From the NCBI GenBank assembly GCA_028714175.1, contig JAQTMV010000002.1, positions 1 through 64,000 of the forward strand: a DNA stretch of 64,000 nucleotides, given 5' to 3'. Origin of the DNA: Methylococcales bacterium (GTDB lineage: Bacteria > Pseudomonadota > Gammaproteobacteria > Methylococcales > Methylomonadaceae). The notes beneath the pieces are model-generated. The model was not told where the DNA came from. It was given only the letters and a program-made list of their open reading frames with translations, and did not search any database. Shown here in pieces: positions 6,203 to 25,229 of this stretch (its first letter is position 1; every line of letters begins with the position of its first letter). The position numbers and the translations under genes are program-made.

Positions 6203-8068
6203 ATGAATGAACAGATACTAGAAAGACCAAAAACAGTGAATAACGAACATTGGCAACAGGCATCCAGATGTCCGATGCATGCCCAATCCACAGAGCAAAC
6301 CCTGCTGAGGGCCGAAGATGAGCTGTTTCTTCCTATGCATAAGCGCGTGATTACCCAGTATTCAACTAATGAGTCTGGTGTCACCGAACTGCATCTTTAC
6401 TACGAAGACAAGGAGATTTCCTTTGACGAGCCGGAGCTTTTTGCGTTTGGTGAACGCTTGGGGCAACAATCCCGTTTTGTAGCTGAAACCGCTACAACTT
6501 GGGGCGATGGCTATAGTTGGCCGCGCATCAAAGAACTTCTTGAGCATCTTATTGAAGAAGGCATATTGCATCTTGCGGATACATCCGAATCCGCCTCTAG
6601 TCCAGGCGAAACCCGCCAGATCAGCCCACCTCCAGCGCAAAGCAAAGAGCCTCGCACCTGGTTTGATTGCGAAGCGATCATTGCTGAATTAACAGGGCGT
6701 CCTCTGGAAATGGGTTATCTGGAATTAGTGGTTCCGATTTTTAGAGTCGCCCATATTGCTCTGGACATGGAAGGCCGACAAGTTGGCGAAGCCAATGTTT
6801 TCCCAGATCGGCTCCGCCTGGATATTCCGACCGAGTGGAGTGCCTGCCCATTCCCAGGCAGTCGTTACCAGAACGAACGGCCAATGAATGTAACTGCACT
6901 AAAAAGCATGAAGAAGCATTGGTCACAAACCATGGCCGTCCTGACAAAAATTAGAGAAGCTTATTTACGCAGATTTCCCGATGCCCGGCAAGGCTTGACA
7001 GTTGGCCATTTAGAGTGCCTGTCCACGTTGGTATTAGCGCTACCTGCCTACCTGCTTATGCGTTCGGAAAATAAAGTAAATAACGGCAGTCTTCATCCCG
7101 TGCTGTCAAACATGTTCCGAGTTACGGATGGCGTGCGTATGACGACGCATCAAATGCTGATCGTACCCGCTGCAGAAGCTACATTGTCTCCCGACACACC
7201 CATCACCAGTAGCGAAATATATCAGTACGCTGAACGCAATTATGTCTTTCAGTCGGCTCATGGGGTTTGTGCAGGGCCAAAAGCAATGATAGAAGAGTTC
7301 TTGGCTGTACTTGTAGATGGCAAGCCTGTTGAGGATATGGCCTCAGTAAAATTTGATCCTGAGGTACAGGACGCTTTGGATGCTATTGAACCCGCTTTAG
7401 ATTATGGTCTATATGGCTTACGGGTTTATGTCATTGTATTGTCCTTCTGGACATTAATGAGCCGAACTTATGAACAACTCTGGAAAATTTTAGAATCTTG
7501 GCCGGAAAGAGGCTCGGTAATGCTGAACGAATTTAAGCAAATTATCCAGATTGATGTAAAAAACCTGCAAGCCGATACCCTTTTAGCCACTGAAGATTTG
7601 CGGTCAAACCGTGACCATGTCCAAGCCGGCATGTTTGAGAAAACATCTCGAGGACTTAAGCTTCCGTTCGCGGAAGAAACATTATCACAGCGAATAGCTC
7701 CTGTGCCGGCAACCCACCACGCAACTGCTGAAAAAGTACTCCGTTCTGCTTTAAGTCAATGTTTTGGCAAAAAGATTGCTGACGATGATCCAACTTTCAA
7801 TCGCTTGATTGGCTGCTTGATAAATTACTTTCGCAGCGAACAAGCCATTGTAAAAGCAGCTTGTGAAGCTCAAGGTTTTATTAATCGCCAACTTGGCAGA
7901 CCAGCACCTGAACGCGATTTCACCGCGGCGGATATTAATCTTTATAGCCTGTTGATCGGTGATGTTAAGAGATTACCCCTCTTAAGTGAGTTATTTTATG
8001 AGGTATTTAACCTCCAAGTAGTTGTAACGCAGAACAATATTGAAATATCAGATCGGATTGCCGGTTAA
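6203..8068 (+). CDS. Unrecognised 621-aa protein, first gene of peptide cluster
   Basis: The start is set at ATG 6203 because CGGAG lies 8 nt upstream; an in-frame ATG at 6170 lacks such a site. It has no signal peptide or membrane segment, so it should act in the cytoplasm. Residues about 63-126 (from LHLYYEDKEISF to EEGILHLAD) have the strand and helix spacing of a small PqqD-like winged-helix recognition domain, but this is a weak pattern match. The rest is mainly helical with scattered His, Glu and Cys (CPMH near residue 24, a Phe-Arg-Val/Asp-Gly-Val-Arg-Met stretch about 310-330). I find no radical SAM, YcaO, ATP-grasp or LanB/LanC motif. Its place before the peptide gene makes a peptide-modifying or peptide-binding role plausible. 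Confidence 0.85.
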   Translation: MNEQILERPKTVNNEHWQQASRCPMHAQSTEQTLLRAEDELFLPMHKRVITQYSTNESGVTELHLYYEDKEISFDEPELFAFGERLGQQSRFVAETATTWGDGYSWPRIKELLEHLIEEGILHLADTSESASSPGETRQISPPPAQSKEPRTWFDCEAIIAELTGRPLEMGYLELVVPIFRVAHIALDMEGRQVGEANVFPDRLRLDIPTEWSACPFPGSRYQNERPMNVTALKSMKKHWSQTMAVLTKIREAYLRRFPDARQGLTVGHLECLSTLVLALPAYLLMRSENKVNNGSLHPVLSNMFRVTDGVRMTTHQMLIVPAAEATLSPDTPITSSEIYQYAERNYVFQSAHGVCAGPKAMIEEFLAVLVDGKPVEDMASVKFDPEVQDALDAIEPALDYGLYGLRVYVIVLSFWTLMSRTYEQLWKILESWPERGSVMLNEFKQIIQIDVKNLQADTLLATEDLRSNRDHVQAGMFEKTSRGLKLPFAEETLSQRIAPVPATHHATAEKVLRSALSQCFGKKIADDDPTFNRLIGCLINYFRSEQAIVKAACEAQGFINRQLGRPAPERDFTAADINLYSLLIGDVKRLPLLSELFYEVFNLQVVVTQNNIEISDRIAG

Positions 8069-8149
8069 ATCGGCAACCGTTGTCCGAATCTGCCAGCATG
8101 GGGTTGGCAAATCAACGTGCGATGGGCACGGACATAACAGGAGAATACC

Positions 8150-8233
8150 ATGAAAGTAAAATCCAATATACGTGCTGGCTTGCAGGCAAAATTGGTTTCA
8201 GGCGGTTTCTGTCGCGGCCCAGTAATAGCTTAA
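8150..8233 (+). CDS. Candidate RiPP precursor peptide, 27 aa
   Basis: Too short for standard gene calling. AGGAG is 8 nt before the ATG, a strong ribosome-binding site. The first 19 residues are basic and amphipathic and end in LVSGG. The remaining residues are FCRGPVIA. The Gly-Gly is the classic cleavage site for C39 peptidases, and the exporter encoded 3.7 kb downstream has an intact C39 domain, so an 8-residue core released after GG is the natural prediction. A transcription hairpin follows directly. It is not a methanobactin precursor: the core does not have that Cys pattern and no mbnB or mbnC is present. Confidence 0.7.
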   Translation: MKVKSNIRAGLQAKLVSGGFCRGPVIA

Positions 8234-8252
8234 GCCTAGCCTAGTAAAAATC

Positions 8253-8286
8253 ATGAGAGGGATGATGAGTTCCCTCTCATTTTAAA
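8253..8286 (+). terminator. Hairpin terminator or attenuator after the precursor gene
   Basis: Perfect 10-bp inverted repeat ATGAGAGGGA (8253-8262) and TCCCTCTCAT (8271-8280), with an 8-nt loop and a T-rich tail. It lies between the peptide gene and the di-haem enzyme gene. Partial termination there would give more precursor mRNA than downstream mRNA, which is common in bacteriocin and RiPP operons. Confidence 0.75.
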
Positions 8287-8407
8287 TAGCCATTTTGTTG
8301 GATAAGTCATCCACGTCAGGCAAGGCGGTTTGATTGCAAAAGCAGAGAACCAAGTTGAAATATTGTATTTGCGGGTTATACGTTATAAAAGAATTTAGGA
8401 GCATACC

Positions 8408-10648
8408 ATGAAACAGAGTTTTATTAGCGATGAACCGCAAAACACAGAAACGACAATACCTACAGCACGTCGTCACCGGCATGAAGAAAAAAATAATCCT
8501 ACAGGGCGATTTTTTGCTTCGGTTACTTATGTTATGGCAGTTAGCGGCCTTTTGTTAACGACTCAAGCGTCAGCAAACACCACGCCAATCTATAACCCCT
8601 CTCAAGCACGATTATTCGGCTTAGACTCATTACGCAGTGCAGTAATACAGAACGGCGGCGTGCCATTGCCGAAAAATCTGGATCATTACATCAAAAATCG
8701 TGAGGCTGCCTTGCAGCTAGGTAAAGCATTATTTTGGGATATGCAAATTGGTAGCGATGGCGTACAGTCCTGCGCCAGCTGCCATTTTCATGCGGGAACC
8801 GATGATCGTGTCAAAAACCAGATTAATCCGGGTTTGCTGGCTATTTTCGACCGCCCAGAAGACGCCATTAAAGGCTACTTTAATGCCACAGGTGTTTTCA
8901 AGCCTGTTTTCGAAAGCAGGCAACCTAATCAATCTCTTAAACGCAAAGATTTTCCTTTTGTTAAGACAATTCAGAAGGTAGAGCACGCGGCAGATGGTTC
9001 GATTGCGCCGATCTCCGGCAACAGTAATGATATAGTAGGCACCATGGGTATGCTGTTTACATTTTATAATAACGTGGTTCCAGGTTTTGCCATCGATTCA
9101 GGATCGCCAGTTAAGGACCCAATCTGGAATATCAACGGAAAATACAATGTGCGCCGGTCTGTAGCAAGAAACGCCCCGTCAGTAATCAACGCCGTTTTCA
9201 ATTTAACAAATTTTTGGGATGGAAGGGCGAATCCTCATTTTAATGGGCAAGATACCTTCGGAGACCAAAGTCCAAACGGCGGCGTTGTTGTTCATCAGCC
9301 AGGACAGCCTTTAAGCTTTGAACCAATCACAATGGACAGCGCCAGTTTGGCATCTCAAGCCCTTGCTCCAATTGTTAGCTTCTCTGAAATGTCTTTTGGC
9401 GATCCTTCCCAAAGATCCGTAACCGATCCATCCCAGCCCAATGGACGTAGTATTTCTGAGATCGGCAAGAAAATGTTAGCAGCATCAACGCAGACCGGGG
9501 TGCCATTAACTCCGCTGGGTTTACAAACAGTTCACCCCGAGGATTCGGTGCTAGGCAGTTTATCCAAAGCGCCTTACCGTGGATTGAATACGACCTATGA
9601 AACGCTTGTCAAAACCGCTTTTGCAGAACAATACTGGAATTCTGATGAAGCTATTGAGACACCTGGCATTGTATTCAACCAAATGGAGTTCAACTTCGGC
9701 CTGTTTTTTGGACTCTCTGTAGCTCTCTACGAATCGACTTTGGTAGCAGACCAATCTTATTTCGACCAATGGATGGAAACGGGTCGCTTCAATAGCGGCT
9801 TTGGTAACAAGGAATTAGCAGGATTAAACCTGTTCGTCAACGAAGGCCAATGCCTAAAATGCCACGCCGGCCCTGAACTAACCAAGGCATCAGTAAGAGC
9901 CGCTCAAGAGAATAAAAATCTAATACGGGCGATGGCAATGACAGAGGGCAGCGCGCTCTACGATAATGGTTTTTACAATATATCGGTTACGCCCACTACG
10001 GATGATATTGGCAGGGGCGCTGCGGATGCTTTTGGCAATCCACTCTCTTTTGCTCGTCAAGCGCTATTCTCCCGAATGGGACAAAAAACTATTCCTTTCC
10101 CCATCCTTGGCGACCAATTCATCCCTGCCAAAAATGAGAATACCGGAAATCCGGTCTGCACGGATGCAAACAGTAATGGATTTTGCGAATCAAGCGAAGC
10201 TATCCTTCCTGAATTCCAGAGAGTTGCTGCGGATGGCGCCTTCAAGACACCCGGATTGCGAAATAGCGCTCTGACCGGACCTTATTTCCATAACGGCGGC
10301 ATAGCTACTTTAAGACAAGTAGTGCAGTTCTATAATCGCGGAGGAAATTTCTGTAGCTTTAATCTTAAGGATTTGGATCCAGGCATCAAACCCCTTGGCT
10401 TGTCCGATGAACAAGAAGAAGAACTGGTCTCCTTTTTGATATCTTTGACCGATGATAGAGTTGTCTATCAAAAAGCCCCTTTTGATCATCCGGAACTAAA
10501 GATACCATCAGATGGACGCGATACTGCCGGTACTCGCAGGATAAAGGAGGTAGGCGCGTATGGATCAGATCGCCCTTTGGGAACTTTTCTCAACCTGAAT
10601 CCCAACGATGCCATCTATACTCCTTCCGGAATCTGTTTCACAGAGTAA
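8408..10648 (+). CDS. Di-haem MauG/cytochrome c peroxidase-like enzyme
   Basis: 746 aa, about twice the usual di-haem peroxidase. After a long N-region there is a hydrophobic segment ending in TTQASA (residues about 35-56), so it should be exported. Two c-type haem sites are visible: CASCH at 122-126 and CLKCH at 482-486. The C-terminal block FKTPGLRNSAL, GPYFHNGG and QFYNRGG is the standard family signature. The extra length lies mainly between the two haem sites. MauG and MbnH in this superfamily oxidise peptide or protein side chains. Position directly after the precursor suggests oxidation of the peptide in the periplasm, but the predicted core has no Trp or Tyr. AGGAG precedes the ATG. 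Confidence 0.88.
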   Translation: MKQSFISDEPQNTETTIPTARRHRHEEKNNPTGRFFASVTYVMAVSGLLLTTQASANTTPIYNPSQARLFGLDSLRSAVIQNGGVPLPKNLDHYIKNREAALQLGKALFWDMQIGSDGVQSCASCHFHAGTDDRVKNQINPGLLAIFDRPEDAIKGYFNATGVFKPVFESRQPNQSLKRKDFPFVKTIQKVEHAADGSIAPISGNSNDIVGTMGMLFTFYNNVVPGFAIDSGSPVKDPIWNINGKYNVRRSVARNAPSVINAVFNLTNFWDGRANPHFNGQDTFGDQSPNGGVVVHQPGQPLSFEPITMDSASLASQALAPIVSFSEMSFGDPSQRSVTDPSQPNGRSISEIGKKMLAASTQTGVPLTPLGLQTVHPEDSVLGSLSKAPYRGLNTTYETLVKTAFAEQYWNSDEAIETPGIVFNQMEFNFGLFFGLSVALYESTLVADQSYFDQWMETGRFNSGFGNKELAGLNLFVNEGQCLKCHAGPELTKASVRAAQENKNLIRAMAMTEGSALYDNGFYNISVTPTTDDIGRGAADAFGNPLSFARQALFSRMGQKTIPFPILGDQFIPAKNENTGNPVCTDANSNGFCESSEAILPEFQRVAADGAFKTPGLRNSALTGPYFHNGGIATLRQVVQFYNRGGNFCSFNLKDLDPGIKPLGLSDEQEEELVSFLISLTDDRVVYQKAPFDHPELKIPSDGRDTAGTRRIKEVGAYGSDRPLGTFLNLNPNDAIYTPSGICFTE

Positions 10649-10742
10649 TCCTGACTAATAAATATAGGTTCGGAAGTCCACAATTTGCTTGTTAAGTGAG
10701 TGATGAGACTATATCTTATTGATTATACTAACATTAAAATGT

Positions 10743-10756
10743 TGGACAGTTGTCCA
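10743..10756. promoter_or_regulatory. 14-bp palindrome before the exporter genes
   Basis: TGGACA (10743-10748) and TGTCCA (10751-10756) form a perfect inverted repeat with a 2-nt centre. It is 13 nt before the proposed TTG start of the HlyD gene and just before its ribosome-binding site. It could be an operator for a second promoter or an RNA hairpin that affects translation. The evidence is only the symmetry and position. Confidence 0.3.
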
Positions 10757-10769
10757 GGGAGATTATTTC

Positions 10770-11963
10770 TTGCCTGCTTCATTTTCTCGTACAACTCGAT
10801 CGCTAGCCAATGACACGTCCAGGTATGCTGTTTTCGCCTGGTTAATTGCGGGATTAATCCTGACCGGATGGTTGGCCTGGTTTTTCTTTGCCAAGATAAC
10901 CGTGTACGAGGTTTCCACCAACGCGCGCCTTGAAGTCGATCAATCCGCTCATCCTATTGCCGTATCGGTGGCGAGCAAGATTGTTTCCACCTCATTATCA
11001 TTGGGGCAAGAAGTTCAGGCGAGTGATGTTTTGGTTGAACTCGATGCGAGCAGCGAAAAGCTGCGTTTGCACGAAGAAGAGTCACGATTGCAGGCTTTAC
11101 CCCCCCAGATTGTCTCCATACAAAAGCAGATTGCCGCACTGGAGCAAGCCAAATCCGAGGATCATCAAGCTTTGCTTACGGTAGCCCAGAGCGCTCGATC
11201 GCGGCATAAGGAAGCTGTCGCTGCCGCAGAATTTGCCAAAGACCATGAGCGCCGCCTGACCAAAATGATGAGCTCTGGAGCTATTCCACTTATTGAAGCG
11301 TTACGCGCCAAAGCAGAATTACAAAAGTTGAGTTCTGCCAGGGATGCGCTGTTCCTGGATATTCATCGCTCAGAGTTGGATGCCAGGACGCGTTTAAATC
11401 AGGAGCAGGCAGAAATTGAAAATCTCAAACGCGAGGCCGCCAGATTGAATGGCGAACTGGAAACAACCCGAAGGACTATTGCCAGGCTTAAACAGGACAT
11501 CGAAAAACATCTGATTCGAGCTCCGGTAGCGGGGCAAATCGGCGACGTAGTGCCGCTGCAAGTGGGCGCTTATGTCGCGGCGGGTGAAAAACTAGGAAAA
11601 GTGGTACCGCATGGTGAACTCAGAATCGTTGCTGATTTTTACCCCGCATCAGTGCTGGGAAAAATTCATCCGGGACAACTCAGCCGTATGCGCCTGGACG
11701 GTTTCCCCTGGGCTGAATATGGGACGATTCAAGCCAGAGTAAGCCGGGTCGGCGCTGAAATCAGAGATAACCTGGTGCGGGTAGAGTTCATGCCAGAACT
11801 GTCTTCCGAATCGCCTATTATTATGCAACACGGCCTGCCTGGCTCTATCGAGGTGAGCGTGGAACAGCTTGCTCCCGCAGTGATGATCTTGCGTGCAGCG
11901 GGTCAGTTAATGTTTGGCTCCAGGGAACAGCTTAGTCCTCCGACCGAAGCCAAACGCTTATGA
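10770..11963 (+). CDS. HlyD-family membrane fusion protein
   Basis: About 397 aa from the proposed TTG start, chosen because AGGGAG lies just before it; the frame opens earlier at 10719 without a good site. One membrane segment near the N-terminus (FAWLIAGLILTGWLAWFF) is followed by a lipoyl-like half motif, a long coiled coil, the second lipoyl half (HLIRAPVAGQIG) and a beta-barrel region. This is the periplasmic adaptor that joins an inner-membrane ABC exporter to a TolC-type channel. It overlaps the next gene by 4 nt (ATGA), indicating one operon. Confidence 0.93.
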   Translation: MPASFSRTTRSLANDTSRYAVFAWLIAGLILTGWLAWFFFAKITVYEVSTNARLEVDQSAHPIAVSVASKIVSTSLSLGQEVQASDVLVELDASSEKLRLHEEESRLQALPPQIVSIQKQIAALEQAKSEDHQALLTVAQSARSRHKEAVAAAEFAKDHERRLTKMMSSGAIPLIEALRAKAELQKLSSARDALFLDIHRSELDARTRLNQEQAEIENLKREAARLNGELETTRRTIARLKQDIEKHLIRAPVAGQIGDVVPLQVGAYVAAGEKLGKVVPHGELRIVADFYPASVLGKIHPGQLSRMRLDGFPWAEYGTIQARVSRVGAEIRDNLVRVEFMPELSSESPIIMQHGLPGSIEVSVEQLAPAVMILRAAGQLMFGSREQLSPPTEAKRL

Positions 11964-14683
11964 GCAATATCAGGACTACTGCAAAACAGCGTTGGCTAGT
12001 GCCTGAGGTCGTCCAGACATCAGCCATGGATTGCGGCCCCGCCTCTTTAAAATGCCTGCTCGAAGGTTTTAATGTACCTATTAGTTATGGCCGTCTTCGC
12101 GAAGCCTGTCAAACCGATGTGGATGGCACTTCAATCGATATGCTTGAGGTAGTCGCCAACCAGTTAGGTGTTGAAGCCGAGCAGGTTATGATTCCTGTTG
12201 ATCATGTATTGTTGCCTGAAGCAGACGTCTTACCGGCCATGGTGGTTGTGCGTCATGCGGATGGGGCGACTCATTTTGTGGTGATCTGGCGACGGCATGG
12301 TTCCTGGTTACAAGTGATGGACCCGGCAATTGGCAGGCGCTGGGTGAATTGTCAGCGTGTTACCGAAGAAATTTATCGCCATGTATTACCCGTACCCGCT
12401 ATCGACTGGCGAGACTGGGCGGCTACGAATGAGTTTCTGAAGCCGTTACGCCAACGCTTGTCTTTGCTGGGAGCGACCAAGAATAACACAACAATATTGA
12501 TAGATCATGCGCTTAAGGACCCTGGCTGGTTGGCATTGGCAAAGCTGGATGCCAGTGTCCGATTGGTTAATTCTATTGTGGAAGCTGACGGCATCAAATC
12601 TGGCAAGCATGCTGTCAAACTAGTGCGGACGCTGCTGGAACAAGCAGGTAATAAGTCAGACGAACTCTTTAAAACGATTCCAAAATCTTATTGGTCAGTG
12701 ACACCTCAAAAACCCGAGGGTGCTAGTGAAGAACAACTTCTATTTAAGGGTGCGGTTTTATTACAGATAAGAGGAAAAAAATCCGGAATAATCAAGGAAG
12801 AAAGTGATAAAGAAGAGCCGCTGTCGCTTGAACTTGCAGCCGCACTCAACGAAAAGCCCTTACATCCGGGAAAGACACTGCTGGATTTACTCAAAAACGA
12901 TGGCCTGTTATCACCTGTTGCGCTCATAGGAGCGCTATCCATTTCCGTAGGTGCGGTGTTAATTGAAACTCTGCTGTTCAGGGGGATTTTTGATATTTCC
13001 TGGGAACTGAATCTGACCAGCCAAAGATTGGGGGCAGTACTTGGCCTGATTTCTTTCGTCGCTTTGCTTTTGTTAATTGAAATTCCTATCGCAATGGAAT
13101 CGCTGCGTTACGGGCGGCACCTTGAAATACGTCTGCGTATGGCTTTATTGCGAAAACTTCCTAATTTGACGGATCGCTATTTTCAGAGTCGACCAGTTTC
13201 AGACATGGCCGAACGCAGCCACAGTATCCATTTGACCAGACTGGTTCCCGGTTTAGGCATCCAATTTATACAAACGATATGGGATATCACGTTCACTCTG
13301 GCCGGAATCATGCTCATCGATTCAGCCAGCAGTGTTTTAGCCCTTATTATTGCCGCACTGGCGGTTGGCCTTCCATTGTTCGCTCAACCTCTACTTAACG
13401 AAATGGATTTGCGGGTACGTAGTCATTCGGGTGCGTTGTTTACTTTTTACCTGGATGCTCTACTGGGCCTTGTTCCCATCCGGACGCATAGGGCTGAGCA
13501 AGCCGTTAGCCGCGAACATGAAGGATTATTGGTGGAATGGGCGCGATCAAGCCGGAGCCTGATCCGTATTTCATTATTCACCGAAGGCTTGCAATCTTTA
13601 ATCTGTGTTGGATTTGTTGGCTTGATGCTGTTTCAGCATTTTTTGCGTTCAGGCGGGGTCACGGGTGGTGATCTGTTGTTGGTTTATTGGGCATTGAAGT
13701 TACCAGCTCTCGGTCAAAGACTGACAGCACTGGCGCATCAATATCCTGCGCAACGGAATATTCTGCTCCGGCTGCTAGAACCGCTTTCGGCTCCAGAGGA
13801 AATCCATGATCCTGCACATAATGAGATCATCAAAGCAAGTACCAAGAGCGCCTGCGGCGTTGGCATAGCAATTGACAGTGGTAGCGTGCTGGTGTCTGGA
13901 CATACTATCTTGCAGGATATTGATCTCATTATTTCCCCAGGAGAACACGTCGCTATCGTTGGTCCCTCGGGGGCCGGCAAATCCAGTTTGGTAGGTTTAT
14001 TGCTCGGGTGGCATCGGCTGGCTACCGGACAATTGCTGGTCGATGGTATGACTTTGAACGGAGCAAACCAGCAATCCTTGCGTCAGGAAACGGCGTGGGT
14101 TGACCCTGCCATCCAAATCTGGAACCGTTCGTTTCTGGATAATCTCAACTACAGTTCCAGTGAAAATGGTTTCGATAAAATGGCTGGTGCTATTGATTCG
14201 GCTGCTCTGCGTGGCGTATTAGAGAAATTGCCATCAGGTTTGCAAACCTACCTGGGTGAAAGCGGCGCATTGCTTTCTGGCGGAGAAGGACAAAGGATGC
14301 GACTGGGCCGTGCCTTGCTGCAAACCAATGTTCGTCTTGCCTTGCTGGATGAACCTTTCCGCGGAATGGATCGCAGTCAACGTCACCAGTTACTGACCGA
14401 TGCACGGCAATGGTGGCAAGATGCAACACTGCTTTGTGTCACCCATGATGTAAGCGAAACGTTAGCATTTAATCGCGTTTTAGTTGTTGAAAACGGACGC
14501 ATCATCGAAGATGGTTCCCCCGGTCAATTGGCCAAGAGCCAATCCCGTTACCGGGACTTGCTAGATGCCGAAGAAGTGGTGCGCCAGGACCTGTGGAAGG
14601 GAGATCAATGGCGTCGCATCCATATCCAGGAAGGATGTATTAACACTACCCATACGGACACAGTGAATGAACAAGGATATTAG
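11960..14683 (+). CDS. C39-peptidase ABC exporter (NHLM/bacteriocin type)
   Basis: A 907-aa three-part exporter. An N-terminal C39 peptidase domain has an intact triad with Gln19 in the oxyanion hole, Cys25 (DCGPAS), His105 (THFVV) and Asp121 (MDPAIG). The membrane domain spans roughly residues 310-590. The ATPase domain has Walker A GPSGAGKSS (about 668), signature LLSGGEGQ, Walker B LALLDEP (about 794) and the VTHD switch His. An unusual charged linker of about 170 residues separates peptidase and membrane parts. The enzyme should cleave a leader after Gly-Gly and export the rest. The 27-aa peptide upstream offers exactly such a site. Confidence 0.93.
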   Translation: MSNIRTTAKQRWLVPEVVQTSAMDCGPASLKCLLEGFNVPISYGRLREACQTDVDGTSIDMLEVVANQLGVEAEQVMIPVDHVLLPEADVLPAMVVVRHADGATHFVVIWRRHGSWLQVMDPAIGRRWVNCQRVTEEIYRHVLPVPAIDWRDWAATNEFLKPLRQRLSLLGATKNNTTILIDHALKDPGWLALAKLDASVRLVNSIVEADGIKSGKHAVKLVRTLLEQAGNKSDELFKTIPKSYWSVTPQKPEGASEEQLLFKGAVLLQIRGKKSGIIKEESDKEEPLSLELAAALNEKPLHPGKTLLDLLKNDGLLSPVALIGALSISVGAVLIETLLFRGIFDISWELNLTSQRLGAVLGLISFVALLLLIEIPIAMESLRYGRHLEIRLRMALLRKLPNLTDRYFQSRPVSDMAERSHSIHLTRLVPGLGIQFIQTIWDITFTLAGIMLIDSASSVLALIIAALAVGLPLFAQPLLNEMDLRVRSHSGALFTFYLDALLGLVPIRTHRAEQAVSREHEGLLVEWARSSRSLIRISLFTEGLQSLICVGFVGLMLFQHFLRSGGVTGGDLLLVYWALKLPALGQRLTALAHQYPAQRNILLRLLEPLSAPEEIHDPAHNEIIKASTKSACGVGIAIDSGSVLVSGHTILQDIDLIISPGEHVAIVGPSGAGKSSLVGLLLGWHRLATGQLLVDGMTLNGANQQSLRQETAWVDPAIQIWNRSFLDNLNYSSSENGFDKMAGAIDSAALRGVLEKLPSGLQTYLGESGALLSGGEGQRMRLGRALLQTNVRLALLDEPFRGMDRSQRHQLLTDARQWWQDATLLCVTHDVSETLAFNRVLVVENGRIIEDGSPGQLAKSQSRYRDLLDAEEVVRQDLWKGDQWRRIHIQEGCINTTHTDTVNEQGY

Positions 14684-14684
14684 T

Positions 14685-16802
14685 ATGTTGGCCTGGCCTC
14701 TTTCGAGGCTGGGAGAAAGTATCGAAGAACTTGCGCGTCATGCACACCTGAATCCGGCAACCCGGGAAAGTCTTATTGCTGCTGAACCCTTGAAACCGCA
14801 AGATATGGCTGATCTTGATCGCTGGATCGAATGGGCTGGTGATAGATTAGGCATTGAAGCTGAACCCATCGAAACATCAGTATCTGAATCCGGGCAACTT
14901 CTTCGCAATTCGGGACCTGCCTTGCTGAAGCTGGGTGATGGTCAAGATGTTCGGTTTTTGTTATTACTCAAGTCAAAATCCGGTATGTTACAACTGATCG
15001 GCCCAGACCTGTGCGTACACAGATGTCCGGCTGAAGTCATGCGCGCGGCACTGTGTGAACCCTACGAAGCGCCGGTTACCGCCGAGATAGATCGCTTACT
15101 GGTGATTGCCGGCGTACCCGGGCGGCGGCGGCAACATGTAAGAGCGGTCATGCTCCGTGAGCGTCTCGCTACTCAGCGCATAAGTGGCTGCTGGATCCAG
15201 CGTCTGCCACCTACATCAGGATTTTGGCGGCAGCTGGCACAGGCTCATTTGCCTCGGCGGGTGGTTCTTATGTTAAGCGTATTCACACTGGTTTATGGAT
15301 TGGAAATAGCGGGTTGGAGTTTGATTGGACACGCTGCTTTAAACGGACGGCTGGATTTGGGCTGGCTTACTGCCTGGGCTTTATTGGTATTATCACTTAT
15401 TCCGCTACATTTACTGGGAAGCTGGTTAGACTCCACTTTTGCGCTGGATATGGGCAGAATTCTTAAAAAGCGGCTTTTGGCCGGCGCCTTACGAATGGAT
15501 ACTGAATCAGTCAGACATCAGGGTGCCGGCCGATTGCTCGGGCGGGTTATGGAATCCCAGGCACTTGAGTCATTAGCGCTGAACGGTGGTTTTGCTGTTA
15601 TTATCGCGGTCATCGAATTGATCTTTGCCGGTGTTATTTTGGCTGCTGGAGCAGGAGGTCAACTGCATTTACTCCTGTTGCTAGGCTGGTTAACGCTGAC
15701 TATGGGATTAAGCTGGCGTTATTTTCAGCGCTTGCGAAAGTGGACGTTTATGCGCCTTGATATGACACATGAGCTGGTCGAACGCATGGTCGGACATAAA
15801 ACTCGTCTGGCTCAGGAACCGGCAAATCGCCGAAACGCGCAGGAAGATCAGGTTATTAAAAAGTATCTGAACATGTCTAAGGAATTAGATGACGCCATTG
15901 TGCCGATCACTGGCGGATTAGCGCGCGGCTGGATGATAATTGGCTTGACGGGGTTAGCACCTGCTTTTGTTTCCGGTACCGGCGATGCAACCGGATTGGC
16001 AATTGGCTTGGGCGGACTATTGCTCGCCAGCAGAGCGCTTTCTGGCGTATCCGGCGGCTTGGCGGCATTGGCCAGGGCTGGTATCGCCTGGACTCAGGTT
16101 TCAGCATTATTTTACTCAGCCAACAAAAAACTTTCCCAAGAACCCTTTATAACGTCCTCCCAGATGGCAGGGATGGGTTCCAATGGCTCAGCAACGAAAT
16201 TAATTGATGCCAGCGATTTGGTGTTTCGTTATCGGCCACAAGGTGATCCAGTCCTAAGTGGTGTTGATTTATCCATTTATAAAGGCGAGCGAATTCTGCT
16301 TGAAGGCTCATCCGGCGGTGGAAAATCGACACTTGCGTCTTTGTTGGTGGGTCTTCGAACACCTGATTCCGGCTTATTGCTTTTGAATGGACTGGATAGA
16401 CATACATTAGGTGCAAGCTGGCATCGACTGGCAACACAAGCGCCTCAATTTCACGAGAACCATATTCTGACTGGCACTCTGGCATTTAACCTGCTGATGG
16501 GACGTAATTGGCCTGCTTCACAGGAGGATCTTCAAGCAGCTGAAGAATTCTGCGCAGACTTGGGGTTAGGAGATTTGCTGGAACGGATGCCGTCAGGAAT
16601 GATGCAGATGGTGGGCGAAACAGGCTGGCAACTCTCTCATGGCGAACGTAGCCGTATCTTTCTGGCGAGGGCATTACTGCAAAATGCACAATTGACTATC
16701 CTGGATGAAAGCTTCGCTGCACTAGACCCGGAAACACTGGAGAAATGTTTAAATTGTGCGTTTAAACGTGCGCAAACTTTACTGGTTATTGCGCATCCTT
16801 AA
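14685..16802 (+). CDS. Second ABC exporter with degenerate N-terminal domain
   Basis: About 705 aa. The ATG at 14685 directly follows the stop of the preceding gene and has AAGGA before it; an overlapping ATG at 14667 is possible. The N-terminal 190 residues resemble a peptidase-like domain without catalytic Cys or His (a VRFLLLLKSKSG strand pattern survives). The membrane domain follows, then an ATPase domain with Walker A GSSGGGKST, a variant signature QLSHGERS and Walker B TILDESF. The pairing of a C39 exporter with a non-cleaving partner is the arrangement of NHLM-type peptide exporters, which probably act as a heterodimer. Confidence 0.88.
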   Translation: MLAWPLSRLGESIEELARHAHLNPATRESLIAAEPLKPQDMADLDRWIEWAGDRLGIEAEPIETSVSESGQLLRNSGPALLKLGDGQDVRFLLLLKSKSGMLQLIGPDLCVHRCPAEVMRAALCEPYEAPVTAEIDRLLVIAGVPGRRRQHVRAVMLRERLATQRISGCWIQRLPPTSGFWRQLAQAHLPRRVVLMLSVFTLVYGLEIAGWSLIGHAALNGRLDLGWLTAWALLVLSLIPLHLLGSWLDSTFALDMGRILKKRLLAGALRMDTESVRHQGAGRLLGRVMESQALESLALNGGFAVIIAVIELIFAGVILAAGAGGQLHLLLLLGWLTLTMGLSWRYFQRLRKWTFMRLDMTHELVERMVGHKTRLAQEPANRRNAQEDQVIKKYLNMSKELDDAIVPITGGLARGWMIIGLTGLAPAFVSGTGDATGLAIGLGGLLLASRALSGVSGGLAALARAGIAWTQVSALFYSANKKLSQEPFITSSQMAGMGSNGSATKLIDASDLVFRYRPQGDPVLSGVDLSIYKGERILLEGSSGGGKSTLASLLVGLRTPDSGLLLLNGLDRHTLGASWHRLATQAPQFHENHILTGTLAFNLLMGRNWPASQEDLQAAEEFCADLGLGDLLERMPSGMMQMVGETGWQLSHGERSRIFLARALLQNAQLTILDESFAALDPETLEKCLNCAFKRAQTLLVIAHP

Positions 16803-16827
16803 AACCTAAATCCGCAGCTGCGAGATT

Positions 16828-18276
16828 ATGAATAAACTTTTTATTTTAGCGCTATCGGCGCTAATCGCCGGATGCTTCAAGATCGGCCCGGATTATATCC
16901 GTCCTCAGATCGATACACCCAGGCAATGGCGCTTTGCGGAGAGCAATGTCCGTCAAAATGCCACCAACCTGAAGTGGTGGGAACAGTTAGGTGATCCTGT
17001 CCTGAATCAGCTGGTAGGTCAGGCGGTGCAAGGAAACCTGGATCTGAAAATAGCTATTGCCAATGTCGAGCAGTTTATGGGGCAGTATGGTTCAACTCGC
17101 GCCAATCTGTTTCCCCAGATTTTCGGAACAGGTAATTATGCACATGATCAGCCCAGCAGTGGCGGAGGCGATGTTTTGAACAGCGGAGCAAACAATGACG
17201 AAGTTGACTTTGCCCGACTGGGAGTCACAATGAACTGGGAACTGGATGTCTGGGGTCAACTGCGCCGAGCCAACGAAGCTGCTCGCGCTGACCTGCTCAG
17301 ACAGGAAGCTATCAAACGGGCAGTGATTCTGACCCTGGTCAGTCAGGTTGCGCAAACGTATATCACGCTACGCGAGTTGGACAAAAATCTGAAGATCACG
17401 AAAAACATTGTTAAAAGTCTCGAAGAGGAAATGCGCATCGCTAAAATTCGTTTTGATGGAGGTTACAGCTCCAAACTGGAACTTCAGCAGGTCAACTCCG
17501 AATACCAACGACGCAGGGCCTTTATTCCCTTATATGAGCAACAAATAGCACAAACGGAAAATGCGTTGAGCGTTTTGCTAGGGCGAAACCCGGGTACCAT
17601 TCCACGTGGCCTTTCGTTTGATGAACTCCGTCTTCCCGCCGTACCGGCCGGCTTGCCTTCCGACCTGCTCGCCCAACGTCCCGACATTCAGCAGGCAGAG
17701 CAGGAATTGATTGCTGCCAATGCAAGAATCGGCGTAGCTCGCGCTCAATATTTCCCGAAAATTTCGCTAACTGGCGATGTGGGACAGATAAGTACTCAAG
17801 TGGCGACGCTTTTTGTTCCAGGCGCTAATTTCTGGAGCGTAGGCTCGGCTCTGCTCACGCCGATTTTTACCGCAGGCAAGATCGCGGGACAAGTGCAGTC
17901 TGCTGAAGCAGTGCAGAAAGCGGCTGTGGCGAATTACCAGCGGTCTATCCTCTCCGGCTTTCGTGAATTCGAGAATGCGCTTGTGAGCAGTAACAAAACC
18001 AAAGTACAAAAGGAGAGACAAAGCGAGCGAGTTGCCGCAGTGCAAAGCTATTTCAACTTGTCTCGCATTCGTTATGATGGAGGCTATACCGATTACCTTA
18101 CGGTGCTCGATTCGATCCGGCAGTTGTTCGACGCGCAAATTGATCTCATCCAGGCACAAAGCGCCAACCTTACCGCGATGATCGGTTTATACCGCGCCAT
18201 AGGTGGCGGCTGGATAGTTGAGGAGGAGAAAGCGGCTAATTTGCCCAAGCCAAACGATGCAGCGTTTCTCTTTTAG
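16828..18276 (+). CDS. NodT-family outer-membrane efflux lipoprotein (TolC-like)
   Basis: 482 aa. The lipoprotein signal ends in LIAGC (lipidated Cys near residue 16), and GPDYIRP is the family's usual start. Two repeated outer-membrane efflux (OEP) domains follow, with the second copy starting around AQRPDIQQAEQEL. It forms the outer-membrane channel for the HlyD and ABC genes directly upstream, from which it is separated by only 25 nt. Together they complete a cell-envelope-spanning export machine for the peptide product. No terminator is seen after it; IS-derived sequence begins 10 nt beyond the stop. Confidence 0.93.
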   Translation: MNKLFILALSALIAGCFKIGPDYIRPQIDTPRQWRFAESNVRQNATNLKWWEQLGDPVLNQLVGQAVQGNLDLKIAIANVEQFMGQYGSTRANLFPQIFGTGNYAHDQPSSGGGDVLNSGANNDEVDFARLGVTMNWELDVWGQLRRANEAARADLLRQEAIKRAVILTLVSQVAQTYITLRELDKNLKITKNIVKSLEEEMRIAKIRFDGGYSSKLELQQVNSEYQRRRAFIPLYEQQIAQTENALSVLLGRNPGTIPRGLSFDELRLPAVPAGLPSDLLAQRPDIQQAEQELIAANARIGVARAQYFPKISLTGDVGQISTQVATLFVPGANFWSVGSALLTPIFTAGKIAGQVQSAEAVQKAAVANYQRSILSGFREFENALVSSNKTKVQKERQSERVAAVQSYFNLSRIRYDGGYTDYLTVLDSIRQLFDAQIDLIQAQSANLTAMIGLYRAIGGGWIVEEEKAANLPKPNDAAFLF

Positions 18277-19041: not shown

Positions 19042-19331
19042 AACCTCTTTTTATTTTCATTTCCCAGCACTGCGACTGAACCGCTTGCCATGCAGAGTTA
19101 GAAACGCATTCGCGGCAACACCATGAAAGCGCGTGGGTTGCCGCAACAAAAATCGAAAGCATGGATCAGTGTGTCTACACTCAAGCGAATGAAAAGTCCA
19201 GGTAAGCCTATGACTGTTAAAATCTAGCACATGCAAGAAATGGGGAGATTTAGCCAATTTTTGATTTATTCAACAACGCCCCATTGCATATAATTCCCCG
19301 AATTTGTTTCACTGTATAATAAGGATCCACC

Positions 19332-19998
19332 ATGCAACAAGAAATCTTCTCGGCACTGAAAAAATCCATTTTCTTGCCAATCTGCCCGATGAAACACTTG
19401 ACTCTTTGGCAGCAAAAGCAAAATCAGCCAAATTTCCAAAGCAGGCAATTATTATCACGGAAAGTGATGAAACCTGCTCGCTTTATATCATTCTCTCCGG
19501 CAAAGTGCGTGTTTTTAGCAGTGATGAAAAAGGTCAGGAAGTTACGTTACTTATCCAGGAAGCCGGTACTCATTTTGGTGAATTGGCATTACTCAGTGAT
19601 GAAACCAGATCTGCTTCTGCGATAACCCTGGAAAAAAACCGTATGCTGTGTTATTTCTCAAGAGGATTTTATCAATTGGCTTACCCTACACCCGGATGTA
19701 GCGATTGGTTTGTTATGTGCCTTATCAGAAAAAATCAGGTATCTGACTGAAATGGTTAAACAACGGGCTTTGTCAAACGTTTATGAAAGAAACCATTAAA
19801 CTACTCTATGAAATGGCCCATAAAGAAGGCGATATTTTCGTTATCCATGACCGACCCACACAGCAAGAATTAGCCAACATGGTAGGTTCATCCAGAGAGA
19901 TGGTTAATAAAATCATGCATGAATTAACCAAAGGCGTTTATATTGCAATTCAAGACAAAACACTCAGAATTGAGCGTACATTACCAGCGTCCTGGTAA
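19332..19998 (+). pseudogene. Frameshifted Crp/Fnr-family regulator
   Basis: Three reading frames together rebuild a protein colinear with the intact regulator at 30385-31050. The first frame gives MQQEIFSALKK. The second gives LPDETLDSLAAKAKSAKFPKQ through FGELALLSDETRSAS. The third gives RPTQQELANMVGSSREM to the C-terminal LPASW. At least two frameshifts break it, and the stretch around the hinge helix is garbled. It is a dead paralogue. It sits just upstream of the left FecR/CHASE2 module, as the intact copy sits beside the right one, so both probably come from one duplicated block. Confidence 0.88.
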
Positions 19999-20189
19999 TG
20001 ACTCCATACTGGTTATAATGGCACTGTTGGGTTCTGTCGAATTAACCTTCGAGCAGAAAATTCGGTTATTCTAAGCATCTTTCAATATAAGTTGTAACTC
20101 GATATGCTCAATACAAAAAGGATGCACTACCCCATAGACATAATTTTGGTGTGCATTCGTTGGTACGCGGCATATCCGAGAGCTACATG

Positions 20190-20446
20190 GGTTTTGTCGC
20201 ATTAACACATTAACCGCAAACCGCATATTTCGGACGAGCAAATATGCCATTGTTGTTAAGATACTTGATCTGACGAACCTCGACAGGCACGTTCCGATTA
20301 TTATTGATCCTATCGATGGCTGCTTTGTTGGCTCGGCTTTTGTCCATCGTGGCCATCTCTATATCGTTGTTATGGCGCATCGCTTTTTCGAAGAACCGAT
20401 TGGCTGCTGCCTTATCGTGCCTTGCCGTTAGAAGAAAGTCGACCGT
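20190..20446 (-). mobile_element. IS6-family remnant (transposase C-terminal part)
   Basis: On the minus strand, about 78 codons from 20446 to a stop at 20210 encode VDFLLTARHDKAAANRFF, TMDKSRANKAAIDRIN and VRQIKYLNN. These are the middle DDE-domain motifs of IS6-family transposases, including the second catalytic Asp in MDKS. The N-terminal part is missing and the C-terminus diverges. An end-like GGTTTTGTCGCATTAAC lies at 20190-20206 beyond the stop. It is inactive. Confidence 0.7.
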
Positions 20447-20514
20447 TTAAGCCTCCTTATCAACGGCACGATGGAGATATTTCCAAATGTCTTCCACCCT
20501 AATGCATATTTTGC

Positions 20515-20551
20515 TAAATATGGACTTTTCACCGAAAGAAGCCCATATTTA
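20515..20551. other. Imperfect hairpin in the gap before the FecR gene
   Basis: TAAATATGGACTTTTC pairs with GAAAGAAGCCCATATTTA with few mismatches around a short centre. A second symmetric tract (AGAGAAGA...TCTTCTCT) lies near 20615-20640. The 290-bp gap between the IS remnant and the FecR gene holds no convincing ORF. The hairpins may mark the left edge of the module or its promoter region. Confidence 0.3.
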
Positions 20552-20736
20552 TGGCTTGTCAATCCCGATGAGGGAATTCTCGACTGGAAAACTGCACGCA
20601 CGGTTCGGAGAGAAGAGAGAGTCGAGAGGATCTTCTCTACTCTATCTTTCAATATGAATGTTATTGATTTTAGTTAGGTAAAGATATTAGTATTAGATTA
20701 GCAAAATAGAAATTTCCTCTCCGGAAAAAATAAAAA

Positions 20737-23700
20737 ATGCATTATCTACTTGTTCTGTTACTTTTTTTATTTGCGCCCAAAAGTTGGTCGGAGGAAGAAG
20801 TTGCCGATAAAAACTGTATCAATAAACCCACCGCAAAGCTGGTTTCCTTGCAAGGTAATGTATTTTTCGATTCTGATAACAGGGGACATTGGCAAGCAGC
20901 ACAACACAATGAAACAATTTGTGAAGGTGGCCGAGTGCGATTAGCGGCTTTCAGTCGAGCCTCATTACTGCTGCCTGACGGTATTGTCTTACGTCTCGAT
21001 GAAGGCACGGTGCTCAGTTTAAATGGGATTGCCCCCAATAAACCTACCTTGCTGGATTTGCTTAGTGGCTTTATCCTCTTTATTAGCCGGACACCCAGAC
21101 ATCTGCAAATTAATACGCCGATTGCCAACGCTGGACCTGAAGGCACCGAATTTGCCCTAAGCGCTGATGATACCAAGGCCTCTATATGGGTTTACGAAGG
21201 TGAAGTAAGATTTTTTAACGCGCAGGGCAGTATGCACCTCAAAGCTGGGCAAAGCGCACAAGCCCAATTGGGGCATGCGCCGCAAGCACAGATTGACATT
21301 AAACCACCGGATGCAGTTGTGTGGGCGCTTTACTACCCGCCATTGCTGCCTTATCCCGATGTCACAATGATAATAGATGCCAGTATTCGTACGGCTATTC
21401 GGGATTTTCGTCAAGGCCGAATTGACGCGGCTTTGTCGCGGCTCGATGCATTATCGCCTGAGAAACGGACGCCTTATTTTTACAAAATACGCGGCGCCAT
21501 AAGACTCACCGTCGGGCGAGTTGCGCTTGCCTTGCAAGATATCCACGCTTTGCTGGCAAATAATCCCAACGATGCCGAAGCATTGGCATTACAATCAGTG
21601 CTGGCACTGACGCAAAACCGGAAAGATGAGGCCTATGCCTTGGCAAACAGGGCAATTTCTTCTGATTCCCGCTCGTCTACAGCTTATTCTGCATTATCGT
21701 ATGCCGAGCAAGGCCGTTTTGAACTGGACAAAGCACTGGAAGCTACCGACCAAGCCGTGAAGTATGCGCCACACGATGCGATGGTTTGGGCACGGAAAGC
21801 AGAACTCGAACTCGCCCTGGGGTTGATTTCTGAAAGCGGGCAAAGCGCACAACACGCTTTAAAGCTGGATGCCAACCTTGAAAGAACACAAACCGTGATG
21901 GGCTTTTCTTATCTGCTCCGTATGGACACTGATGAAGCGCTGCAAGCCTTTGAAAAAGCGGTCAAACTGGATTCCACCTCGCCTTTGGCACGATTGGGTT
22001 TAGGGTTGGCCAAAATTCGGAGTGGCGACCTTGAGAAAGGCCGTCAGAATCTGGAAATTGCCGCCATTCTTGATCCTGACAATTCATTAATTCGCAGTTA
22101 TCTTGGCAAGGCTTACCACGCAGAAAAACGCAATGTGCTTGCTGAAGGTCAGTTCAACTTGGCGAAAGAGCGCGATCCCAAGGACCCAACGCCTTATTTT
22201 TACGATGCTCTCAAAAAGCAGACAGAGAACAGGCCGGTGGAGGCATTGCAGAATTTACAGAAAGCGATAGAATTAAACGATAATCGCGCGGTTTATCGTT
22301 CCAAGCTGTTGCTGGATGCCGATAGAGCCTCCCGTGAAGCTAGCCTGGCGCGTATTTACGATAACCTCGGTTTCGAACAACGGGGTTTGGTTGAGGCAAC
22401 CAGTTCACTGCAAATTGATCCTACCAACTTTTCTGCCCATCGTTTCTTAGCGGATACGTATGTCAATCAATCCAGTAGAGAAACAGCGCAACTTAGCGAA
22501 CTGTTGCAGGCGAAACTGCTGCAACCTGTCAATATCAATCCGGTGCAACCGCATTTGTCGGTTTCTCAAAGAGGATTACTAAATGCTTTGGGAATAGCAA
22601 ATTCCTCGTTCCAGGATTTTACCCGCACTTTCGAGGGGAATCGTCCGCAGCTAATTGTTTCCGGAGTAGGCGGAAACCTCGGTACTTTCGGTGATGAAGT
22701 CACCTTAAGTGGGCTTGTAGACAAGTTTTCTTATAGCTTAGGGCAGTACCATTATCAAACGGATGGTTTTATCCGACCCTATGGACCTGATGAAGATAGA
22801 AAAAATACGGATCAGCGCCACGACATTTACGATGCTTTTCTACAGTGGGCCATTAATGATCGATTAAATACACAATTCGAATTTGTGCATAGGGAAACCC
22901 AGCAAGGTAATTTAATACAGAAACTGAACTCAATAGATACTACTTTTCCAGACCGTAATTTTTTGAGGGAAAAAACTTACCGTGCCGGTATAAATTTAAG
23001 AGTTTTTACGGATGATCATTTGTTGGCATCATATGTTCATAATGATTCTTTTACGTATATAGACCAGTTAGCTACTGAAAGCCCTGGAAAATTCACGAAT
23101 GATAATAGGGATAGCATCGATTTTTATGAGGGCCAGTATCTTCATCATACGAATTTATATAATCTTATAACCGGCTTTAGCGCCTATACAATAAAAGATT
23201 TTATACCATCTAAGAATATGTCCGGTGGTGATGACGGTCGGAATGGACATAGAGAGTATACCTATGTTAACCTAAAATTACCCGCCAGAATTACAGGAAC
23301 ACTCGGGTTAACATACGATTTTTCGGACGCAAAAAATCAGCCAGATATATATCCAAATGGGGGTATATATCCAAAAGCAGGTCTTTTGTGGGATATAGGA
23401 AATAGGATCAAACTCAGGTTTGCCTACATTAGGGAAAACAAAAGACCTATAGCCGCGATACAAACCATTGAACCAACTCAGATAGCAGGATTTAACCAGT
23501 TTTTTGATGATCTGGCTGAAAAAAAATTTTCGTTTTATGGCGGAGCTGTGGATATGGTAATACAACCCAATTTATTTGCTGGTGTTGAGTTTTCACGCAG
23601 GGATGTCTTTAACCTACATGGTGGCGATTTATTTTTTCAAAAAGATTCATCAAAAGTCTATATTAATTGGGCACCTTTAGAACAATTAGCAATTACTGCC

Positions 23701-24072
23701 CGATATAATTATATAAGAAAATATAGCCCTGAATCTAGTGTGCTTTCCACCCATATCGTGCCCTTAGAGTTCAGATATTTCCATCCTTCTGGTTTTTTTG
23801 GCAAGTTGATTGAAACCTATGTTCATCAAGCGCTGGATAAAATAAATCTAATACAAGTTAATCCAAACGCAAGTAATTTTTTTCTTCTTGATGCTTCAAT
23901 CGGTTTTCGATTTCCGAAACGGCTTGGAATTATAAGCATCGAAGGAAGAAATTTATTAAACAAAAAGTATAGATTTGAGGATTTGAGTGGTGATGAGAAT
24001 AACCAATTCTTTAATCCTAGTTTATTTATTCCGGAAAGGACAATTTTCGGGCGTATTACTTTGAATTTTTAA
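20737..24072 (+). CDS. FecR-TPR-outer-membrane-barrel protein (left module)
   Basis: 1111 aa. A signal peptide (about 1-18, ending SWS) leads into a FecR domain (about 35-190) with the typical pattern from GGRVRLAAFSRASLLLPDG to NTPIANAGPEGTEFAL and VYEGEVRFF. A run of about nine TPR-like repeats fills residues 210-590. The C-terminal 460 residues are beta-rich like a TonB-dependent receptor barrel without a plug and end in FGRITLNF, a typical outer-membrane terminus. The order places FecR and TPR in the periplasm. A paralogue lies at 31810-35235, with shared blocks such as HYQTDGF and IEPTQIAGFNQF. It is followed by two small exported proteins and a CHASE2 cyclase, so a sensor or porin role is likely. 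Confidence 0.9.
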   Translation: MHYLLVLLLFLFAPKSWSEEEVADKNCINKPTAKLVSLQGNVFFDSDNRGHWQAAQHNETICEGGRVRLAAFSRASLLLPDGIVLRLDEGTVLSLNGIAPNKPTLLDLLSGFILFISRTPRHLQINTPIANAGPEGTEFALSADDTKASIWVYEGEVRFFNAQGSMHLKAGQSAQAQLGHAPQAQIDIKPPDAVVWALYYPPLLPYPDVTMIIDASIRTAIRDFRQGRIDAALSRLDALSPEKRTPYFYKIRGAIRLTVGRVALALQDIHALLANNPNDAEALALQSVLALTQNRKDEAYALANRAISSDSRSSTAYSALSYAEQGRFELDKALEATDQAVKYAPHDAMVWARKAELELALGLISESGQSAQHALKLDANLERTQTVMGFSYLLRMDTDEALQAFEKAVKLDSTSPLARLGLGLAKIRSGDLEKGRQNLEIAAILDPDNSLIRSYLGKAYHAEKRNVLAEGQFNLAKERDPKDPTPYFYDALKKQTENRPVEALQNLQKAIELNDNRAVYRSKLLLDADRASREASLARIYDNLGFEQRGLVEATSSLQIDPTNFSAHRFLADTYVNQSSRETAQLSELLQAKLLQPVNINPVQPHLSVSQRGLLNALGIANSSFQDFTRTFEGNRPQLIVSGVGGNLGTFGDEVTLSGLVDKFSYSLGQYHYQTDGFIRPYGPDEDRKNTDQRHDIYDAFLQWAINDRLNTQFEFVHRETQQGNLIQKLNSIDTTFPDRNFLREKTYRAGINLRVFTDDHLLASYVHNDSFTYIDQLATESPGKFTNDNRDSIDFYEGQYLHHTNLYNLITGFSAYTIKDFIPSKNMSGGDDGRNGHREYTYVNLKLPARITGTLGLTYDFSDAKNQPDIYPNGGIYPKAGLLWDIGNRIKLRFAYIRENKRPIAAIQTIEPTQIAGFNQFFDDLAEKKFSFYGGAVDMVIQPNLFAGVEFSRRDVFNLHGGDLFFQKDSSKVYINWAPLEQLAITARYNYIRKYSPESSVLSTHIVPLEFRYFHPSGFFGKLIETYVHQALDKINLIQVNPNASNFFLLDASIGFRFPKRLGIISIEGRNLLNKKYRFEDLSGDENNQFFNPSLFIPERTIFGRITLNF

Positions 24073-24091
24073 TGACAATTTGGAGGCAAAA

Positions 24092-24286
24092 ATGATTGAA
24101 GATTATGATTATATTTACAAAGACAGGAAAACGATTGCAATTCTAATGGTTCTGGGATTTTTGTTAGGTATATTTATTGGTTATATAACTGCCGATGTTA
24201 AGGTGCAAGAATTTGGCTTTAATGCAAGCAATTTTATGGCAACATCCGATAGCAACCGTTTACAGGATAACCAATACAAAAAGTAA
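24092..24286 (+). CDS. Small single-pass membrane protein, 64 aa
   Basis: The ATG at 24092 follows GGAGG; the frame also opens at a TTG 12 nt earlier that overlaps the ribosome-binding site and is rejected. An acidic/tyrosine-rich N-terminus (EDYDYIYKDRK) precedes one membrane helix (IAILMVLGFLLGIFIGYI), and a polar tail of about 35 residues follows. No known family. It lies 19 nt after the FecR-TPR-barrel gene and 15 nt before a cysteine-rich protein gene, so all three are probably one transcript. Confidence 0.65.
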   Translation: MIEDYDYIYKDRKTIAILMVLGFLLGIFIGYITADVKVQEFGFNASNFMATSDSNRLQDNQYKK

Positions 24287-24301
24287 AATGAGGAGAGAAT
24301 T

Positions 24302-24709
24302 ATGGCAGCATCACCAGGAATAAATGCAGTTATCGCAGCGGGTCTGACGATTATAACGATAGTAGCAGGATACATAGTGGGACAAGAAATTTACCAAAGA
24401 ACGAGCACAATACAAGTTAATATGGTATATGGTTATGAAGAAAACACAGGGGTTTTAAAATTGGGCTTTGCTTGTCTATGTGAACTAACTAATCCAAGTA
24501 CAAGAACATCATCGTGGAAAGGAGATGGTGGTGGCTGTGGTATTAGCGATGGCAATGCGCTCACGTTTGCAAGTGATTGGATCCCGGCAAATAAGCGACG
24601 TCCGGATATTCCTCCGCCTGATGGCGCTTGCTGTAAGTTACAACCAAAAGTAGGAAATTGGGAAGCACCACTACCTAATAAATCAAATTGTTGGGTTAGT
24701 GGACTTTGA
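24302..24709 (+). CDS. Small exported cysteine-rich protein, 135 aa
   Basis: AGGAGAG precedes the ATG. An N-terminal hydrophobic segment (AVIAAGLTIITIVAGYIVG) is followed by a polar region with six cysteines arranged CLC, GGGC, ACC and NC. This suggests disulfides outside the cytoplasm. I recognise no family. The position directly downstream of the FecR-TPR-barrel gene is matched by the cysteine-bearing lipoprotein gene at 31258-31758 beside the paralogous module, although the two sequences are not clearly alike. Confidence 0.65.
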   Translation: MAASPGINAVIAAGLTIITIVAGYIVGQEIYQRTSTIQVNMVYGYEENTGVLKLGFACLCELTNPSTRTSSWKGDGGGCGISDGNALTFASDWIPANKRRPDIPPPDGACCKLQPKVGNWEAPLPNKSNCWVSGL

Positions 24710-25200: not shown

Positions 25201-25229
25201 TTAAAGGAGAGGGCTAGAAACATCCAACC

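Follow-up and report, generated by a model that had tools for sequence, protein, structure and literature searches.

What does the gene cluster at positions 6203-18276 of the first 64,000 nucleotides (nt) of contig JAQTMV010000002.1, assembled from a Methylococcales bacterium, produce? This whole 64,000-nt stretch is referred to here as the window. Within the cluster, a 621-amino-acid (aa) protein of an unnamed family is followed by a 27-aa open reading frame (ORF), a large di-haem enzyme, and a set of export genes, an arrangement that a first-pass annotation had read as an export system for a ribosomally synthesized and post-translationally modified peptide (RiPP) without a known class-defining enzyme. 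All of the genes that it named were recovered in place by ORF, Pfam, and NCBIfam analysis, and they lie close together on the + strand. A conserved leader, an intact C39 exporter, and co-inheritance of the genes were observed, and on balance we lean towards reading the cluster as a pathway for producing and secreting a small modified peptide that may represent a new RiPP family. The first-pass reading of a conserved, exported RiPP-like peptide system was retained, while its leader/core boundary and its NHLM label for the exporters were not.

The 27-aa ORF (8150..8233, + strand) is preceded by an AGGAG ribosome-binding site and encodes a precursor that begins with MKVKSNIRAG. With the window included, nine loci carry the 621-aa protein or a close homologue of it: L014 from Methyloglobulus morosus (on the same contig as G960/L049), L015 from a metagenome-assembled genome (MAG) labelled Ramlibacter, and, within the methanotroph order, L016/L017 (G006), L018 (G037), L019 (G003), L050 (G896), L051 (G868), and L052 (G887). 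Together these loci span three families of that order plus the Ramlibacter-labelled MAG. A short ORF starting MK[VI]K[ST][NK][IV]R[AG]G, or a close variant, lies near the 621-aa gene in all nine; lack of conservation of this ORF had been named in the first-pass annotation as grounds for giving up its reading, and the ORF was instead kept beside every close homologue. Across 16 peptides, residues 1-10 are near-invariant, with several codons in use at most positions, and the remainder is divergent, the pattern expected of a genetically encoded RiPP precursor, in which the leader is conserved and the core varies. Most of these ORFs have a Shine-Dalgarno-like sequence upstream.

Leader starts were searched for using a degenerate DNA pattern, with the reversed pattern as a control. 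Matches were obtained in 6 of 121 related genomes (0-2 per genome), and the control gave none in the 121. The window's own 4.86-Mb genome holds a single site and was the only genome with a match among 398 in a phylum sample. The plasmid collection held no peptide match, and the leader strings did not occur in the literature searched.

Near-fixed residues with varying codons point to selection on the translated leader, which bears on whether the peptide is the product at all. The conserved stretch could instead be a regulatory RNA or a leader ORF controlling the operon, as might be suggested by a conserved element just before it and a hairpin just after it. A tandem two-hairpin element (8091..8130, + strand; stems 8091-8109 and 8116-8130) lies between the stop of the 621-aa gene and the peptide start, and was seen in the window, L014, L018, L050, L051, and L052. 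The sequence CGTGCGATGGGCACGG occurs once each in G000, G960, G868, G887, G896, and G037, each time 34-42 nt ahead of the peptide start; the close di-haem gene described below is carried by the same six genomes (G037 has one further site with one mismatch). In L015, two variants of the element differ by covarying stem bases (CGTGC/GCACG to CGCGC/GCGCG). All seven element sequences fold into two hairpins, not all of them better than shuffled sequences, and the element may be either an RNA element or a DNA dyad; it is not in Rfam, a search of which near the peptide gave chance-level matches only. The hairpin that had been noticed after the peptide gene was borne out (8253..8280, + strand), with a 10-bp stem and a folding energy of −19.5 kcal/mol for the 81-nt stretch (z −2.15), and could be a partial terminator or an mRNA-stabilising stem. 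Set against a regulatory role are conservation at the amino-acid level with synonymous change, the sharing of one leader by 16 peptides with unrelated cores, and the several leader ORFs that have no upstream element, and we consider such a role very improbable.

The first-pass annotation had ended the leader at an internal Gly-Gly (residues 18-19), leaving an 8-residue core, FCRGPVIA. This Gly-Gly is absent in L014, L018, and L050 and was rejected as the cut site. Because residues 1-10 are near-fixed while the rest diverges, the leader is probably the 10 aa MKVKSNIRAG, with cleavage after A9-G10 yielding a 17-aa core, LQAKLVSGGFCRGPVIA. Conservation stops at residue 10, and residues 9-10 are Gly-Gly in L050 and Ala-Gly in the others. 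Known double-glycine leaders have a Gly-Gly/Ala/Ser site with hydrophobic residues at −4, −7, and −12 (PMC6363468, PMC10885120). In the present family, −4 is Ile or Val, −7 is Lys, the leader ends at −10, and the site is AG or GG. Judged from sequence, [IV]-x-[AG]-G resembles the double-glycine sites with a hydrophobic −4.

Several core types share this leader. At loci with the di-haem gene (window, L014, L018, L050, and L051) the cores are 17-24 aa long, with one Cys and a terminal Ala. Those in L015, L016, and L019 are longer, Ser/Asn-rich, and end in RC plus a short hydrophobic tail, and both cores of G467 (L034) are 12 aa long and contain RCETFRR. At least one Cys peptide is present on the same contig at every 621-aa locus, and the second peptide of G003 is Cys-free. 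His-rich, Cys-free peptides with the same leader were also seen in G005, G006, and G960 (L026, L017, and L090), e.g., MKVKTNVKAGNHGADDAPGHVRREHAGIAGHR; it is possible that these cores bind metal and are served by the same exporter family.

The export genes, all on the + strand, consist of a HlyD-type periplasmic adaptor (10719..11963; PF13437; start probably near 10770, judged from homologues), an ABC exporter with a C39 peptidase domain (11960..14683), a second ABC protein without a working peptidase (14667..16802; PF00005), and a NodT-family outer-membrane channel (16828..18276; TIGR01845 at 373.8 bits, over cut-off; PF02321). The C39 domain has its catalytic Cys25, His (ATHFVV), and Asp (VMDP) intact and is fused to an ABC domain, as in PCAT/AMS exporters (PF03412 67.5 bits and PF00005 76.2 bits, both over cut-off). 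Homologues of HlyD, the C39-ABC exporter, and its conserved partner, the second ABC protein, adjoin peptides in the window, L017, L018, L033, and L034; HlyD and the C39 protein are present up to the contig end in L015 and L050, and the exporter lies elsewhere in the genome in G868, G887, and G960. The second ABC protein ends directly after the switch His (VIAHP), as does a fragment of it in G003, and its homologues have nearly the same length; this short end looks real. The G003 cluster (L019) is degraded, with a shortened 621-aa gene, an 82-aa remnant of the second ABC gene (13818-14066) next to a transposase-like ORF, no C39 homologue above the limit, and two intact leader peptides.

This set is like that of the PCAT/AMS double-glycine RiPPs (lanthipeptides, proteusins, and others) in combining an intact C39-ABC protein, an adaptor, an outer-membrane channel, and a small precursor with a Gly-type site. 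It is unlike them in its 10-aa leader ending in Ala-Gly, published leaders being longer, and in having no established modifying enzyme among its genes. The exporters had also been called NHLM-type, and the likeness extends to two ABC proteins with HlyD and to NHLM ABC1 as the top-ranking NCBIfam model for the C39 protein. However, the scores lie far under the NCBIfam cut-offs (ABC1 173 vs 853 bits, ABC2 107 vs 709, HlyD 39 vs 156) and the long nitrile-hydratase-type leader is absent; membership in NHLM/NHLP was rejected and the label kept as an analogy only. Separately, a 38% identical C39 exporter was seen on a Piscinibacter gummiphilus plasmid (L037) near DUF692, TfuA-like, and MoeB genes, another RiPP-like set.

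The 621-aa cytoplasmic protein (6203..8068, + strand; an alternative earlier start at 6170 would give 632 aa) was recognised by none of the Pfam, NCBIfam, PHROG, and PADLOC models, and a search of PDB sequences returned one chance-level match only (E 1.5). An identity as a defence or phage protein was rejected, given no PADLOC or PHROG match. Homologues beside leader peptides are 53-79% identical. Shorter, distant relatives (363-480 aa) stand without any leader peptide: two genomes of a single methanotroph genus hold four of them, a Burkholderia plasmid holds one (the single distant homologue in the plasmid collection), and another proteobacterium holds one. The invariant Cys of the core is kept in homologues of 20-25% identity, and a joint alignment, which predates the finding of the last distant homologue (from the other proteobacterium) and leaves it out, has 13 invariant columns, including D188, R192, E196, N229, E344, and C356. 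This set, with C356, looks like an active site, and by genomic association the protein is a candidate peptide-modifying enzyme. A haem-thiolate role, prompted by an N-terminal CPMHA together with Cys356, is speculation only. As for the surroundings of the distant relatives, the homologue of the core on the Burkholderia arboris plasmid (L036 6446-10272) lies in a nonribosomal peptide synthetase (NRPS) cluster that also holds genes of the Cupin_8 and metallo-beta-lactamase-fold types. The two genomes of one genus each have two 417-425-aa core homologues in other contexts (L020, L021, L053, and L054), with methyltransferase-like and leucine-rich-repeat-type genes or Rieske-type oxygenase-like genes as neighbours.

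The 746-aa di-haem enzyme (8408..10648, + strand) is of exported type and carries two CXXCH haem sites and a CCP_MauG domain (69.8 bits), the features of the bCCP/MauG superfamily, in which it is a CorB/SACCP-like relative of MauG. Its Y642 aligns with Y294 of MauG and the equivalent Tyr of MbnH, the sixth-ligand site of the second haem, which is Met in bacterial peroxidases. Ligation is Tyr-His in MauG and Met-His in bCCP (PMC6405878), and the alignment would place the enzyme in the Tyr-ligated MauG/MbnH-type branch. Tyr ligation by itself does not establish that a protein or peptide is modified, as the same ligand is present in BthA, a di-haem peroxidase (PMC6405878). Among 221 genomes of the order, six have a member of the close subfamily (>900 bits), the next match scoring 399 bits, and in all six the 621-aa gene and the peptide are close by despite differing gene order and strand; since some of the six are close relatives, they do not amount to six independent events. 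Recurrence of a di-haem enzyme of about 745 aa with the 621-aa gene, which had been put forward for checking, was thus seen at six of the nine close-homologue loci. The wider family (about 35-47% identity to the 746-aa enzyme) is present in 88 of the 221 genomes at E 1e-60, and among five of its loci examined a CorA gene directly adjoins in two, L095 and L098 (E 1e-63 and 7e-32, respectively, against 4bz4). Another di-haem protein, of 566 aa, was observed in G005 (L033 1603-3303) just before exporter genes; this locus encodes two His-rich leader peptides and lacks a 621-aa gene.

CorB and SACCP are co-transcribed MauG-like enzymes proposed to oxidise a Trp of their partner to kynurenine, and the paper on CorA left the exact role of such enzymes unsettled (PMC3912023). 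The cluster resembles the CorA-CorB and MopE-SACCP pairs of methanotrophs, in which CorA and MopE are copper-binding proteins, in that its large di-haem enzyme belongs to the same branch and carries Tyr at the ligand position, and it is homologues of this enzyme that adjoin CorA at L095 and L098. It differs in what the enzyme adjoins, namely a short Trp-free peptide, a new protein family, and a peptidase-exporter; no CorA-like gene is present among the cluster ORFs. MbnH/MbnP and methanobactin offer a second comparison, with a MauG-superfamily enzyme bearing the same Tyr and an occurrence in methanotrophs. The cluster's enzyme, however, lies far under the MbnH model cut-off (110 vs 363 bits), and no MbnB, MbnC, or MbnA-type precursor was found among the cluster genes using Pfam and NCBIfam.

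In the pathway that we propose, the 27-aa precursor carries the 10-aa leader, seen as conservation, and the cytoplasmic 621-aa protein would recognise this precursor and modify the core, most likely at or near the single Cys. Cleavage after A9-G10 would then fall to the C39 domain, and export of the core to HlyD, NodT, and the pair of ABC proteins, as suggested by family knowledge and the leader pattern. In the weakest step, the di-haem enzyme, separately exported, would complete the product by oxidation, either in the periplasm or at the surface. That the product has to do with copper handling is a guess by analogy with the enzyme's relatives. A bolder version is a new RiPP class in which a minimal MKVKxNxxAG leader directs short Cys peptides to a new enzyme fold for modification around the Cys, and the CorB-like enzyme then performs a new oxidation on the peptide outside the cytoplasm; this we regard as tentative and, taken whole, rather doubtful. 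As had been noted in the first pass, none of the usual class-defining RiPP enzymes is among the cluster genes, nor was an RRE domain recognised, and the literature on RiPPs with MauG/MbnH or in methanotrophs yielded methanobactin and unrelated work only. The pathway would be a compact, testable one in methanotrophs, with an unusually short leader and a protein family unnamed in the libraries searched. CorB/SACCP-like enzymes may thereby have a second kind of partner, and a single small system could probe a new enzyme family as well as how far MauG-like chemistry extends.

Several observations weigh against this pathway. LahT, a C39 domain that has been studied, uses a −12 contact and a hydrophobic −7, and the 10-aa leader has neither (PMC6363468, PMC10885120). 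AlphaFold prediction of the 621-aa protein using four sequences reached a pLDDT of 51 and a model of its N-terminal domain 48, with no Foldseek match below 0.001. The predicted strand/helix order of this domain fitted RRE/PqqD, yet hhalign was unsupportive (P 0.084, reversed control 0.29), and that assignment was not adopted. The 621-aa protein is also not universal, since the leader loci of G005 and G467 have exporters and no visible 621-aa gene. These two loci, the fact that no enzymatic domain was recognised in the protein, and the use of C39 exporters for unmodified pheromones and bacteriocins (PMC6363468) would all suit a peptide that is only trimmed and exported, a secreted bacteriocin or pheromone for which the 621-aa protein serves as a chaperone, immunity, or regulatory protein. 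Its distant homologues, by contrast, stand apart from any leader peptide, one of them in the NRPS cluster, and keep the invariant polar residues and Cys, a better fit to an enzyme than to immunity; we think an unmodified product unlikely.

The remaining difficulties concern the di-haem enzyme. Three of the nine 621-aa loci have no adjoining di-haem gene, and the cores beside it lack Trp and have no aromatic residue in common, sharing one Cys, so that CorB-type Trp chemistry is not simply transferable. Both points, along with the Tyr ligation of the peroxidase BthA, would be accounted for if the peptide, the 621-aa protein, and the exporter formed one pathway and the di-haem enzyme were a periplasmic peroxidase or copper-linked CorB-like enzyme sharing only regulation or location with it. 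Opposed to such a separation are the restriction of the close subfamily to the neighbourhood of the 621-aa gene and peptide (6/6 genomes, in rearranged order and across three families) and the single core type and upstream element that these six loci have in common. Two separate functions remain a serious contender, a little short of evenly balanced in our estimate. Downstream of the cluster, window positions 19304-27440 hold a separate signalling neighbourhood that consists of a cyclic nucleotide monophosphate-binding protein, a 1111-aa FecR/TPR protein, and a CHASE2 nucleotide cyclase.

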